Virus record (IMG/VR): IMGVR_UViG_3300020182_000235
Span: 1 to 20,051 of that record
Reading direction: 5' to 3' (one strand)
Length of the DNA: 20,051 nt
From: a virus
Part shown: positions 3,930 to 17,342 of the stretch, in pieces
Layout of the letters: every line of letters starts with the position of its first letter
Position numbering within the stretch: position 1 is the stretch's first letter
Program-made: the position numbers and the translations under genes
The notes under the pieces: model-generated
Database searches by the model: none
Told to the model about the DNA's origin: nothing
Seen by the model: only the letters and a program-made list of their open reading frames with translations

Positions 3930-4598
3930 ATGAAACTTGATGATCAATTCTTTGACGAAGTAGCTGACACTCTATTTTACGGATCGCTACCAGAGTTCCA
4001 ACGAGCGCCTCTAGTCTATATGGCTGAAGAGTATGAACGCCGTCAATGGGACAACGTAGATAAACTAGCCTATATCATGGCTACTGCATACTTAGAAACT
4101 GATAGGTTCAAAGCTCTTGCTGAATATGGCAAAGGACGAGGACGAGATTATGGCGCTCCTACTCTTATGATTAGAGGTCGTAATGAGGTCTTCTACGGAC
4201 GTGGTTGGGTAATGCTTACTTGGCTACAGAACTATGCAAAGATTTCTACTGCTGCCACCTTGGCTCTAGGAAGAGAAGTTGATCTAGTTAATGAACCTGA
4301 CGATATTATCGAAGACCTTGAGGTCAATGCTTTTGCTACCTTTGAAGGTATGGAGCGTGGTCTGTTCACAGGGAAGAAACTCTCTGATTATATTAACAAG
4401 AACAAAACAGATTTCGTAAATGCACGAAGAATTATTAACGGAACTGATAAGGCTGAAAAGATTGCCCAGTACGCTATTAAGTTCAGGGATGCATTGAATA
4501 GAATTGAAACCCCATTTGATCTTTCCACTGAAGATCTAAAAGAAGAGGAAGAGGAAGATGGAGAAACAAGGATTACTAAGTTCTTTCGGTTTAGATAA
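3930..4598 (+). CDS. GH19/lysozyme-like peptidoglycan glycosidase (endolysin candidate)
   Basis: The 222-residue product resembles the chitinase-like family 19 lysozymes that many phages use to cleave cell-wall glycan. Visible features are AYLETDRFKALAEYGKG (residues 53-69, with E56 and E65 as likely catalytic acids), the hallmark FYGRGW (88-93) and the NARRIINGTD segment (164-173). There is no signal peptide or membrane segment, so as a cytoplasmic endolysin it would need a holin. Alternatively it could be a virion-borne wall-degrading enzyme, as its place between terminase and portal is unusual for lysis. The C-terminal tail (200-222) is highly acidic and then basic, and its coding sequence overlaps the next gene by 41 bases. 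Confidence 0.8.
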   Translation: MKLDDQFFDEVADTLFYGSLPEFQRAPLVYMAEEYERRQWDNVDKLAYIMATAYLETDRFKALAEYGKGRGRDYGAPTLMIRGRNEVFYGRGWVMLTWLQNYAKISTAATLALGREVDLVNEPDDIIEDLEVNAFATFEGMERGLFTGKKLSDYINKNKTDFVNARRIINGTDKAEKIAQYAIKFRDALNRIETPFDLSTEDLKEEEEEDGETRITKFFRFR

Positions 4599-12291: not shown

Positions 12292-14562
12292 ATGTCTATT
12301 ACTAACCCAACTCCCGGCGGATCTTTCGGTGGGGATGGCTCGTCAGTCTCAGGTGCTGGCAGAACTCCCGGTGGGCAATTCTCTGGGATTGGTCGCATCG
12401 GTGTGAACGGAAGAGGCCTCGCTGACTCTATTCTTTGGATTGGACCAGAGCCTCCAATCAGTAAACAATTCCTACTCTGGATTAATACCTCAGATGGTAG
12501 ATGGTACGGTTACTGGTTTGACGGATCTTCCTCACAGTGGGTAGACCTCTCTCTACCATTTGGTGAAGGTCTGGTAGGACCAACAGGTCTTACAGGCGAC
12601 ACTGGACTTCCGGGACCAGTTGGCCAAGGTATTCCTATTGGAGGTCTGGCTGACCAAATTCTTGTGAAAGCAGATGGCACAGACTTCAATACTATCTGGG
12701 GAGATAGACCAGCGGATGGTAATACAATCATCTTTGGTGTTGTTGATCCTACTACAGAAGGTAGAGATGGAGACTCTTATATCAATGCTGTAACGTATGA
12801 ATTCTTCGGTCCAAAATCAGGAGGAGTGTGGCCAGCAGGTTTCTCACTCGTAGGTCCAATTGGTGAAACAGGTCCTATCGGTCCAGAAGGTCCAACAGGT
12901 CCAGCTGGTTCTGATGCGGCTACTAATTATATTCTTGGTCCTCTTTGTTATGAAAATAACTTTGGTAATACAGTTTACTCTTCGTCAGGTTACGCAACTA
13001 AAGGTAACCTCTTCCAAGTGACATCAGACGTTGTAATGACTGCTTGTAAAGTACGACTTTCTAGTAACCAGACAGTTAAGGCTGTACTTGCAGAGTTGTC
13101 AGAAGAAAATCCAGGCACTATTACAGCTATTCTTGATGAAAGCTTAAGCCAAGTTATTCCAACTACTGACGAATACATATTCCCAATAGCTAACATCGTA
13201 CTTCAACCAACTAAGTTTTATGCAATACTATTGGTTAGAATAGATGGATTGGATACATCCGCGCTGGGTATTCCTTTTGCAGGAGCTACACCTGATGCAG
13301 ATCCAGAAGGTTATTTCAACTTACTAGCTTCTTCTAGGTATACGTCCATAGATCCAGCAGTGAGTGATCTTACCTACTTTAATACTACTACTACAGTTTC
13401 TATGGTAATGTACGGTCTATCTGCACCTTTCCTAGCTACTGGCATTAAGGGTGATACAGGTGCTGCTGGTTTGGATGGACAAGGCGTACCTGTAGGAGGC
13501 ACCGCAGGACAAGTTCTGGCTAAGATTGACTCCACAGACTACAACACTGAATGGGTTGATGCAACTGGTGGAGGTGGTCCCGGTGGTCCTTCTTTGATGG
13601 TACAGGGTGAAATCTCTGCAGACTACACTCTCATTAATGGTGACTTAACGGGAAATGTTGTTAAGAGAGTTAATAATGCAACGCTTAATACTCTATCTGT
13701 TACTGTTCCACCTTCCCTAACTAATGAACAACCTATCACTTTTATTGCTACAAACACAGGAGGCGTAACCTTCCTTCCCGGTGCAGGTGTAACTTTGCTA
13801 TCTGCTGATGGTAATACAGCTCTAAGGGTTCCGTATTCTTCGGCTACAATTATACCTGATCTTGCTAATGCAGAAACTTACTATATTGTAGGTGACCTTG
13901 TTCAGCTTACAGATATGCTTCTACCAGCAAGTATTCCAGCTCCAATAGTCTGGATTTCACCAAGAAATGTTGAGACAGATGTAGATGGAAACATCACTAA
14001 GTTCCTTAATAGAGGTACTGGTGGAGCTACATATGATGCTACCCCAGTTGGTGCAAATAGGAATACTATTGCATTGTATGCAAATTGGAACAATAAAGAT
14101 GTTATTGTGGTACCTGATATTACCTCTAATGGCTATGCACTTGGATCTCCAGTAACAAACACTAGGACAGTATTTACAGTTACTTCTTATAAGGATGTTG
14201 GCCAACTTACCTTTACTGACTTTGATGGCCTTATCTCTGGTCCTACAGGAGCTGGTTCTGAACTACAATTAGTTGGTTCAAGTGGCACTGATGCTTTCTT
14301 GATTGGTGCAAACCAAACTATCTATAAGAATGATGTAGCAGGTGCTAGTGTACTGCCTCTTGCTAAAGATACTGTTGCAACTACAAATAGCGCTGATGGT
14401 CTATTCACACAAACACTATGGCATGATAATGCTGGTGCCTCCAGAAACTGGATTGGTGCAAATGGTGATATGATGATCTGGGACACTGAACTAACTACAC
14501 TTCAACTAACTGAACTACATACTCTGTTTACAGATTACTTTGGTACAGGAGATGGCGTGTAA
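12292..14562 (+). CDS. Collagen-like tail fibre protein with C-terminal lectin-like domain
   Basis: The 756-residue protein starts after AAGGAG. It contains three Gly-X-Y collagen-like stretches (about 96-113, 188-208 and 384-398), which form trimeric stalks in phage fibres. A roughly 28-residue module is duplicated: GQGIPIGG...TDFNTIWGD (111-138) and GQGVPVGG...TDYNTEWVD (396-423). Residues about 215-380 form a beta-rich domain between the stalks. The last ~210 residues (from about 546) look like a concanavalin/LamG-like fold with ASRNWIGANGDMMIW near the end. That domain is repeated in the next gene. It probably forms the host-recognition fibre. Confidence 0.8.
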   Translation: MSITNPTPGGSFGGDGSSVSGAGRTPGGQFSGIGRIGVNGRGLADSILWIGPEPPISKQFLLWINTSDGRWYGYWFDGSSSQWVDLSLPFGEGLVGPTGLTGDTGLPGPVGQGIPIGGLADQILVKADGTDFNTIWGDRPADGNTIIFGVVDPTTEGRDGDSYINAVTYEFFGPKSGGVWPAGFSLVGPIGETGPIGPEGPTGPAGSDAATNYILGPLCYENNFGNTVYSSSGYATKGNLFQVTSDVVMTACKVRLSSNQTVKAVLAELSEENPGTITAILDESLSQVIPTTDEYIFPIANIVLQPTKFYAILLVRIDGLDTSALGIPFAGATPDADPEGYFNLLASSRYTSIDPAVSDLTYFNTTTTVSMVMYGLSAPFLATGIKGDTGAAGLDGQGVPVGGTAGQVLAKIDSTDYNTEWVDATGGGGPGGPSLMVQGEISADYTLINGDLTGNVVKRVNNATLNTLSVTVPPSLTNEQPITFIATNTGGVTFLPGAGVTLLSADGNTALRVPYSSATIIPDLANAETYYIVGDLVQLTDMLLPASIPAPIVWISPRNVETDVDGNITKFLNRGTGGATYDATPVGANRNTIALYANWNNKDVIVVPDITSNGYALGSPVTNTRTVFTVTSYKDVGQLTFTDFDGLISGPTGAGSELQLVGSSGTDAFLIGANQTIYKNDVAGASVLPLAKDTVATTNSADGLFTQTLWHDNAGASRNWIGANGDMMIWDTELTTLQLTELHTLFTDYFGTGDGV

Positions 14563-15248
14563 TGTTCCTTCCAATTATTGGGGCTATAAGCTCATCAAGA
14601 CCTCTTATAACTGCTGGAGGTGGTGATCCTGTAACAACAGGACTCATCCCAGTAGGTTATGATGATCCGGTAATGTGGTTCAGTGCTGACTCTGTCATAC
14701 TAGATGGATCTGGAAATATCACAACATACGTAAATAAAGGTACTGGCGGGACTGCCTTGAATGCTACCGCCAATACCACAAACTATGCAACTGTAGGTGA
14801 CTTGAATGGTAAAGCCATTAGTCTAATTCCAAGTACAACAACTGGTGGTTACTCTATCACTGGAGGTACTGGTACTATGATAACTGGCTTTGGTACATAC
14901 AAAGATGGTCTAGATGCAGCATTTGATGGTTATGATGGTTATATGTCAGGTAACTTGCAGATGACAGGTAACTCTGGATCTAACTCGTGGTTCTCTGGGC
15001 AACCAGCAAACCCAGTTAAAAATGGTATTGCAACCGCAGTTGTTCTGCCACTAGAGAATGGTACAATTGGTGCATTCGCAAATTCTGCAACACCAACCTC
15101 AGTTAATAGATTGTTCCAAGATGACTTTGGTACATCAAGAAATTGGAAGGGTACATCAGGAGATATTCTTATCTACAATGATAGAGAGTATACAATTGAT
15201 GATATGCTTGCATTCCACAATCAAGCCGTAATATTTTACGGACTATAA
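14562..15248 (+). CDS. Fibre-domain duplicate, lectin-like (228 aa)
   Basis: The start overlaps the fibre stop by one base (TAATG). The product corresponds along nearly its whole length to the C-terminal ~200 residues of that fibre: SGNITTYVNKGTGG matches DGNITKFLNRGTGG, and TSRNWKGTSGDILIY matches ASRNWIGANGDMMIW. It therefore looks like a tandem duplication of the receptor-binding tip, standing alone with a short hydrophobic N terminus (MFLPIIGAISSS) and no collagen stalk. It may assemble on the fibre or another tail part as a second adhesin. Divergence between copies is high, so the duplication is old or under diversifying selection. Confidence 0.7.
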   Translation: MFLPIIGAISSSRPLITAGGGDPVTTGLIPVGYDDPVMWFSADSVILDGSGNITTYVNKGTGGTALNATANTTNYATVGDLNGKAISLIPSTTTGGYSITGGTGTMITGFGTYKDGLDAAFDGYDGYMSGNLQMTGNSGSNSWFSGQPANPVKNGIATAVVLPLENGTIGAFANSATPTSVNRLFQDDFGTSRNWKGTSGDILIYNDREYTIDDMLAFHNQAVIFYGL

Positions 15249-15264
15249 ATAGGAGATCACCAAC

Positions 15265-15732
15265 ATGGCAGTGATTAATTTCCCAGATTCACCGATTGCT
15301 GGTGATCGCTTCACTAAAGATCAAATTACATATGAATGGAGACAAGAGGGATTCTGGAAGTCTGTAGAGGCAAGTGTTAATAACGCGAACCCTAAAGAGT
15401 TTGCTCTATTCCTTAACAGTGTGCCTTCTACTGTAACAGAAGTTCTATACAGACTAGATATTGGTACTGGTCAGCAGCTAGACTTAGTAACAGAAAATGC
15501 ATTTGGACTTATCGGGAGTTTACCAGCAAATGATCAAGTCTATGATATCTATTTGAATGAAGTTCTGGCAACGGATACTATTACTGTGGACACACTTGGC
15601 AATCTATCTATCTTCTCACCTCGGTCACCTATAAATGGACCAGTAACAATTAAAGTGAGAGTCAGTCCAACTACAGTGGTTGATGCTGCATTTGATGGAT
15701 TCGGTCTTATTGGGGAGGTCTATACTCTATAA
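15265..15732 (+). CDS. Small tail fibre-associated protein (155 aa)
   Basis: AGGAGA precedes the ATG. The N-terminal module FPDSPIAGDRFT...YEWRQEGFWKSV (about residues 5-34) is of a kind seen at the start of many phage tail fibre proteins. A beta-rich body of about 110 residues follows. It is joined to the next gene by a TAATG overlap, and that gene starts with a related module ending YEFMPNGTWKNI. The pair may act in one fibre or baseplate-like complex. Confidence 0.6.
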   Translation: MAVINFPDSPIAGDRFTKDQITYEWRQEGFWKSVEASVNNANPKEFALFLNSVPSTVTEVLYRLDIGTGQQLDLVTENAFGLIGSLPANDQVYDIYLNEVLATDTITVDTLGNLSIFSPRSPINGPVTIKVRVSPTTVVDAAFDGFGLIGEVYTL

Positions 15733-17342
15733 TGGTTACTACAACACAAGGTGTCACCTCTCTAAGGTGGCCAACAGGAACAGCTAAAGTAGGAGACTTC
15801 ATTGTAACAGATGACACTAATACAGCATATGAGTTCATGCCTAATGGTACTTGGAAGAATATTGTTGTTGAGAAAGTGTATGATGATTTCTCAGTATCTT
15901 ATGAGGCAGGTATCTCAACAGGAGCTGCTAATCCAAACAATGGGCCGATTACTCTTTATAATGAAGAAACGATAAAACATGGTGATAGGATATATGAAGT
16001 ATCTGTTAATGGTTCAGAAGATTACCCTGCATACAGACAGCTATATGTTTCTTCCCCAGCTACACTAACAGCTTACCATTTGACATCTCACTCGGGTTTG
16101 CCTTTCATAGAAGATGGAAGTCCTTTTAAACCTATCTTCGGATGGGATGTATGGACATGGGGTAAGAATATCTCTGGTTTTAATAGACCGCATACATTAA
16201 AAACTGCTATACCACTCGTAGACTACATTCAAGATCCGAGTAGGATGGATGAAGTAAAAGTAAAAATTGATTGGGGGAATGCTAACGGACTTCCTATTAC
16301 TGTTGGAGGACATACTTGGGTAGTAGAAATGTTTGAGGATGGGAGAGCTAGTAAAAACTACTCAATCTCTTCTCCAACATTTAACTTAAGATTCTCAGAA
16401 GCTGTTCCATATCCTATTAACAGCCCAGCTATACCACCTAGGAGTATCTCAACTGGTTGGTTAGATATGGCATCTAATTCGTTCTACTTGTGGTACACAC
16501 TTACTTACAACCCCGGCCAACATATTGGTGGATGGACACTGACAATTGATGATCCTACCTACACAGGTAATGATGGCACTTCTTCAACATCTGGAATGTG
16601 TATGGATCTCAATGGAAATAACTTATATTTTGTAAGAGAGTCAACAGTAGGTAAGGATGCAATACTACGTAGCACTCTTTCTACATCTCATGACTTATCC
16701 ACAAAGGTAGATGCTGAAACTGTTACATCCTACTATGATCCTAATGAAGACCCATTTGGTGCTATCAATGCAGGTAACTGCTGCATCACTGATGACGGTA
16801 GAGACTTCTTTATCACAGATAGAGATACTAATGCTGTACACCAATTTAAGCTTAGAACAAACTATCAGATTTCTGACATAGCTTCTGTTGATCCGTTTAA
16901 CTCTTTCATCTACACTGAATACAAGAAGGAGTTTACTCCAGATGGTGTAGTCCTCGATATCTTTGTAAACAGAGCTAAAGCAACTCTTCTAGTTCTCACA
17001 GATAATAATAAGATCACTAAATACACATTCGAGAACCAAGATATTAGTACTGCTATTTACGAATCAGAATATGATATTACAGAGGTGGCCAGTGGGGCAA
17101 AGTGTTTAACTATGACTTATGCAGAGTCATCTATCCTACTAGCCATTCCAGAAGGTGTAAGATACCTAGCTGTTGAAGCGGGTATTGATCTGAGTACAGT
17201 AAAAACAAGTCAGGATCTAGTTAAAATTCCATCAATAGACCCAAGGGGAATAGCAGTATCAAAAGATAGTAAGAAAATCTTCATCGCTGATAATCATACA
17301 ATCGACCCCACTCTAAGAGTTACTCAGTGGGACGCAATATAA
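15732..17342 (+). CDS. Tail protein with probable beta-propeller domain
   Basis: The 536-residue product begins with a short fibre-type module (about 11-45, WPTGTAKVGDFI...YEFMPNGTWK). A beta-rich middle part follows (about 50-275), including a Trp-rich stretch near 138-145. From about 286 onward five sequence repeats of roughly 30 residues are visible, each with a hydrophobic strand followed by Asp-containing turn and a second strand. Examples are CMDLNGNNLYFV, CITDDGRDFFITD and IAVSKDSKKIFIAD. This is the pattern of NHL/YncE-like beta-propeller blades. It is probably a tail spike or fibre subunit binding a surface ligand. Confidence 0.6.
   Translation: MVTTTQGVTSLRWPTGTAKVGDFIVTDDTNTAYEFMPNGTWKNIVVEKVYDDFSVSYEAGISTGAANPNNGPITLYNEETIKHGDRIYEVSVNGSEDYPAYRQLYVSSPATLTAYHLTSHSGLPFIEDGSPFKPIFGWDVWTWGKNISGFNRPHTLKTAIPLVDYIQDPSRMDEVKVKIDWGNANGLPITVGGHTWVVEMFEDGRASKNYSISSPTFNLRFSEAVPYPINSPAIPPRSISTGWLDMASNSFYLWYTLTYNPGQHIGGWTLTIDDPTYTGNDGTSSTSGMCMDLNGNNLYFVRESTVGKDAILRSTLSTSHDLSTKVDAETVTSYYDPNEDPFGAINAGNCCITDDGRDFFITDRDTNAVHQFKLRTNYQISDIASVDPFNSFIYTEYKKEFTPDGVVLDIFVNRAKATLLVLTDNNKITKYTFENQDISTAIYESEYDITEVASGAKCLTMTYAESSILLAIPEGVRYLAVEAGIDLSTVKTSQDLVKIPSIDPRGIAVSKDSKKIFIADNHTIDPTLRVTQWDAI

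Follow-up and report, generated by a model that had tools for sequence, protein, structure and literature searches.

The tip of a T-even long tail fibre is either a separate capping protein, as in the S16-type pair gp37 + gp38, or belongs to gp37 itself, as in the T4 type, and S16-type gp38 is held by hydrophobic contacts, with a helical bundle bearing three tryptophans, and contains a polyglycine sandwich (available text of PMC6851490). In the branched receptor-binding proteins of G7C, KP32 and K1-5, a second protein is presumed to be docked by a conserved N-terminal peptide of 7-11 residues (available text of PMC6872550). Among roseophages, N4-like and others, the proteins SUFG_00042 of phiCB2047-B, orf34 of EE36phi1, QJA43160 of MD18 and MAL1_00084 of DSS3_MAL1 belong to the tip family studied here and are free-standing; each begins with a hydrophobic N-terminal peptide of ~12 residues, termed the plug, and its gene overlaps or abuts that of a carrier protein with a domain of ~106 residues, termed the platform. 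These phages have a single tip, which is never fused to the platform and is annotated as hypothetical, whereas the locus described below has two. No description of the platform/plug pair was found in the open-access literature searched, as far as the available text of these sources goes (including PMC4193335, PMC10579305, PMC8825819, PMC6872550, PMC13243795 and PMC6851490).

The stretch of DNA analysed here (the window), a genome fragment, comprises the 20,051 bases of one IMG/VR virus record. Its gene order of terminase, portal, capsid and then fibre is that of a head module of the SU10/CRP-7 kind; the portal matches SU10_portal (E 1.6e-103), the capsid matches SU10_MCP (E 4e-73), and among named phages Roseobacter phage CRP-7 has the closest capsid (48.6%). 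Three consecutive tRNA genes (Pro, Trp and Asn) are located at 1666-1936, and a glycoside-hydrolase-19-like endolysin gene (3930-4598; PHROG 181, E 1e-18) is situated between the terminase and portal genes, with a counterpart in an equivalent position in L056, the nearest capsid relative (47% over 179 aa). Downstream of the locus of interest, two further genes that overlap as TAATG occupy 15265-17342, the second of which encodes a 536-aa product with a marginal NHL-repeat match (E 0.0003), perhaps a propeller-bearing fibre.

The fibre gene (12292..14562, on the plus strand like all features of the locus; an open frame of 756 aa) matches PHROGs 21510, 18179 and 29153 and contains three short G-X-Y runs, at aa 93-110, 188-208 and 384-395. 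Its lineage-specific N-terminal part of ~150 residues (aa 6-152; 12307..12747) is common to L056 at the equivalent genome position (62% over 147 aa), where the L056 contig, whose capsid is 71% identical, ends inside its fibre gene. The middle region (aa 229-373; 12976..13410) is also found in the carrier protein of phiCB2047-B (41% over 146 aa), and is followed by the platform domain (13585..13902; profile match E 1e-42), which in relatives forms the extreme C-terminus of the carrier, and by the fused tip (13912..14547), which was identified by the tip profile and by its homology to the next gene. Because the N-terminal part is shared with L056 and the C-terminal half with phages of other families, the sequences fit a fibre whose distal part has been exchanged. 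Profile searches for platform and tip found neither in 80 loci kept from the at least 578 IMG/VR relatives of the capsid protein, 33 of which reach 5.6 kb past the capsid gene, and a tip-profile search in 14 records of capsid relatives returned nothing. These at least 578 IMG/VR stretches make up a large, mostly uncultured phage group. Third-position GC was 0.22-0.27 in the fibre and tips versus 0.37-0.42 for terminase, portal and capsid, a difference compatible with an acquired cassette but no proof of one. An assembly chimera was set aside, with GC running smoothly over 13.4-15.2 kb and the overlap and plug in register.

The next gene (14562..15248), an open frame of 228 aa assigned to PHROG 29153 and covered by the tip profile over 14637-15242, encodes the free tip. 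As the preliminary description had proposed, nearly all of this protein matches the last ~200 residues of the fibre: fibre residues 539-751 align with free tip residues 24-227 at 72/215 identical positions (33%), with 100 bits and E 2e-28. The local alignment score of 293 is far above what 1000 shuffles of the sequence produced (mean 43, s.d. 7.6, maximum 76), and both tips contain the two landmarks noted earlier, GNITxxxNxGTGG and SRNWxGxxGDxxI, here as GNITKFLNRGTGG / GNITTYVNKGTGG and SRNWIGANGDMMI / SRNWKGTSGDILI, respectively. Both also belong to PHROG 29153, the fibre tip with E 5e-50 over profile positions 22-239 of 241 and the free tip with E 5e-55 over positions 5-240 of 241. At the DNA level, the alignment is limited to short stretches (67 nt at 72%). 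The tip proper begins near 13912, slightly before the 13927 that had been proposed.

Tips of this family were found in seven records of the phage collection, which correspond to five phages after merging duplicate accessions: phiCB2047-B, EE36phi1, M39, MD18 and DSS3_MAL1. A roseobacter host is named in six of the seven records, and the DSS3_MAL1 record names none. The earlier suggestion of a modular tip is borne out by the family being free behind platform genes in four of these phages and, in M39, fused to a gpJ-like protein. The presence of two homologous tips in the window, one fused and one free-standing, is likewise supported. In M39, a Sulfitobacter phage with an unannotated record, the tip ends a large gpJ-like protein and is not preceded by a plug (L002:2124-5333). 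In phiCB2047-B (L001:5540-5720), the last residues of the annotated tip depart from the family pattern, which resumes in another reading frame; this is a frameshift, either in the phage or in the record. No IMG/VR relative was retrieved with the free tip, with its pair alignment or with the phiCB2047-B tip, and the fused-tip alignment retrieved EE36phi1 only; a plasmid search gave no tip match. In solved structures, the platform and tip profiles found weak rows only, judged to be chance (best E 0.13 and 0.0077), and the carrier and tip of DSS3P8 found no match in a search for a link to gene-transfer-agent head spikes.

The term lectin-like, which had been applied to the tip, is retained here tentatively. 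A Laminin_G_3 match in M39 hints at such a fold from a level below threshold (E 0.0012, 19.5 bits against a cut-off of 27.6), and F5/8 type C and sialate-acetylesterase domains occur in other genes located at this position. Pfam gave no Laminin-G or concanavalin A-like match in either window tip, and AlphaFold2 yielded a pLDDT of 31 for the free tip (3 sequences) and under 50 for the fused tip.

To place the fibre among its relatives, the platform was traced by tblastn to 45 phage records, including N4-like Rhodovirinae, siphoviruses such as vB_RpoS-V16 and ~147-kb phages such as DSS3P8, MD18 and RcXuper. Twenty-one carriers, matched by the domain or by the whole fibre, were fetched, and Sinorhizobium phage Phosso was excluded, not being re-found by the domain alone. 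In 20/20 named phages, the carrier gene stops 0-2 residues past the platform match and the next gene starts overlapping or abutting the carrier stop (ATGA, or TAATG/TGATG). The same layout was observed in 10/10 IMG/VR loci (five being identical or almost identical to named phages) and at L050, where the platform also ends its gene and the next gene overlaps. Compared with these 26 distinct loci (20 named phages, five from IMG/VR, and L050), the window is the sole case in which the protein runs on past the platform, by 218 residues that make up the fused tip. The free tip gene nevertheless keeps the usual junction, sharing one base with the fibre gene in a TAATG stop/start overlap; its ATG is preceded by AGGAG at 14547-14551, and the whole signal spans 14547..14564. 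In bacteria, the platform was found in 7/385 genomes of one class, one of the seven being the centre genome. Among eight prophage-type loci in bacterial genomes, the platform is C-terminal in seven, with one protein that does not end there, and an ORF begins within 4 bases of the stop in six.

An AlphaFold2 model of the platform is predicted to be all-beta, with a pLDDT of about 75. Its best match was residues 195-293 of 294 of the Pa223 capsid spike (9ny6; Z 12.8, rmsd 2.0 over 97 residues, 11% identity), and parts of other phage proteins matched at Z 7.5-9.5. These included residues 79-181 of CBA120 TSP4, the XD1 domain, at Z 7.5-7.9, a range in which the tool warns of chance; XD2/XD3, the T4 gp10-like docking domain, was absent from the matches listed. 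Since the best match is a capsid spike and XD1 is regarded by its authors as a spacer (available text of PMC8825819), neither structural match shows docking, and on the model the carrier may be located on the head or on the tail. In a one-sequence search, PaP3 orf20 (L048:16563-17450), a capsid spike of the Pa223 type, showed a weak likeness to the platform profile (15.6 bits).

The plug of the free tip, MFLPIIGAISSSRP (14562..14603), follows a pattern, M..LLL.S(V/I)(S/A)(S/A/Y)(S/A), that opens the protein in 25/26 of the coupled genes, a set that includes the window, leaves out L050 and remained after five copies were dropped; the exception is RcTiptonus. With L050 added and the window left out, the plug is present in 25 of 26 other loci. 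The set holds near-identical pairs such as RPP1/RLP1 or DSS3P8/V10. Among the remaining plus-strand ORFs of these loci that reach 100 aa, 244 in number, none fits the pattern; this comparison is limited by a pattern defined after viewing the sequences and by control ORFs that are mechanical. As a forward test, IMG/VR was scanned with a DNA pattern combining overlap and plug, which returned seven stretches, six of which have a platform directly upstream. Five of these six were already known and L050 was new, with both plug and platform (E 2e-35); the other new stretch, L053, has the first residues of the pattern only and no platform. By eye, the plug is weak or absent in the eight prophage-type loci. 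Both fused tips (2/2), that of the window fibre and that of the M39 gpJ-like protein, lack it, as would be expected of a peptide whose job is attachment, and the window is the only locus with a plug-less fused tip together with a plug-bearing free tip, against 26 others. The bodies that follow the plug are very different, forming four or more groups at a level of E 1e-4. In a Pfam scan of 18 plug genes, F5/8 type C domains were above the cut-off in five and below it in three more, and sialate O-acetylesterase was found in two.

The best reading of this arrangement, to which we give a probability of about one half and which draws on sequence comparison, is a plug-and-socket tip system that in the window has one tip welded on and another clipped on. 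In the related loci, the platform would form the end of the fibre, probably as a trimer, and the next, overlapping gene would make a tip that clips onto it, with the hydrophobic plug sitting in the platform and the body binding or trimming surface sugar. Tips would be swappable because the plug alone needs to be kept. In the window phage, one tip lineage would be welded to the platform without a plug and a second lineage of the family retained as a plug-bearing partner. A platform that bears a fused tip would then also take a plug, giving a hybrid in which one tip is fused and the other docked, and the virion would display two different tips of one sugar-binding-like family, both presumably binding glycans.

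The proteomics of RPP1 bears on docking in both directions. According to the available text of PMC4193335, the platform carrier gp32 was detected in virions by mass spectrometry, which counts for a docked tip, and the plug gene product gp33 is missing from the 13 virion proteins, which counts against it. The labels 'structural protein' in RLP1 (L022) stand one gene later than in RPP1 (L021), so the one on the RLP1 plug gene may be an annotation error and not evidence. The absence of gp33 would also be seen if the free protein were a fibre chaperone or a temporary cap that is not retained on the virion, and its gene lies directly after the fibre gene, as with known fibre chaperones. We consider this unlikely, because the free protein is a homologue of the tip that the fibre itself carries, genes in this position bear sugar-binding and esterase domains, and no chaperone family in Pfam or PHROGs matched the free tip. 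Less likely again is that the free tip docks on another platform protein encoded outside the 20-kb fragment, which would put the tips on different fibres: in every other locus the plug gene directly follows its own platform gene, and a profile search found no second platform within the window, even though the record is a fragment and platform genes and plugs are paired elsewhere.

The preliminary description had attributed the two tips to a tandem duplication, and this part of it did not hold. In the tree, the free tip clusters with the free tip of Sulfitobacter phage phiCB2047-B (support 99/97, 50% identity), and the fused tip, nearest to the EE36phi1 tip by identity (38%), has no firm placement. 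Forcing the window copies to be sisters costs 27 log-likelihood units and is rejected (p-AU 0.001) in this tree of seven sequences with long branches. The evidence that the two tips descend from separate lineages within one exchanged family is good, though not final. Adjacent and homologous copies would also result from a true tandem duplication, the fibre's own tip having split off and later diverged, and an old duplication that had spread to other phages is compatible with so small and long-branched a tree; given the rejected sisterhood and a mutual identity of 33%, below that of either copy to its nearest relative, we regard it as less probable than the two alternatives above. Of the 27 residues invariant in the other five tips, 24 are present in the free tip and 23 in the fused tip, so neither looks decayed. 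Least likely of all, the free tip would be a leftover whose role was lost once the fibre gained its fused tip, which suits two tips of one family found together, among the loci seen, only in the window genome, but not a gene that retains an intact frame, overlap, AGGAG and plug together with 24 of the 27 invariant residues.

Returning to the docked and welded tips, we put forward tentatively, and with less assurance than for the locus itself, that they belong to a general tip-exchange system of alphaproteobacterial phages, in which a C-terminal platform and a ~12-residue plug would allow unrelated tips, sugar-binding or sugar-cutting, to be exchanged as single overlapping genes among short-tailed, long-tailed and large phages, the window being a natural welded/clipped hybrid on one fibre. 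If this is right, one short peptide and its socket would explain the trading of host-recognition tips among unrelated roseophages, and the window would offer a natural comparison of the fused and docked states in one tip family. It would also provide many genes annotated as hypothetical with a function that can be tested, and indicate which part of a marine phage determines its host range.

By analogy, the principle appears close to that of the S16/T4 gp37-gp38 tips and of the branched receptor-binding proteins. The Pa223 spike resembles the window system in its C-terminal domain, which matches the platform model, and differs in being a head, not a tail, protein, with a next gene that does not overlap in the PaP3 homologue. 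With the S16/T4 fibres, the window shares a tip that is either separate or part of the fibre, whereas its ~12-residue plug and its tip are unlike those of gp38, and the T4-type and S16-type states are not joined in one phage in the available text of PMC6851490. Of the features of gp38-type adhesins, long glycine runs are absent from the free tip, as is tryptophan from its first 38 residues, and no adhesin family in Pfam or PHROGs matched it. The conserved N-terminal peptide on the second protein of branched complexes has its counterpart in the plug, present in 25/26 coupled genes. In those complexes, the dock is a gp10-like domain near the N-terminal side of the carrier, or an adapter (available text of PMC6872550), whereas in the window system it would be the C-terminus of the carrier, with overlapping genes, a plug sequence of its own and varied cargo.
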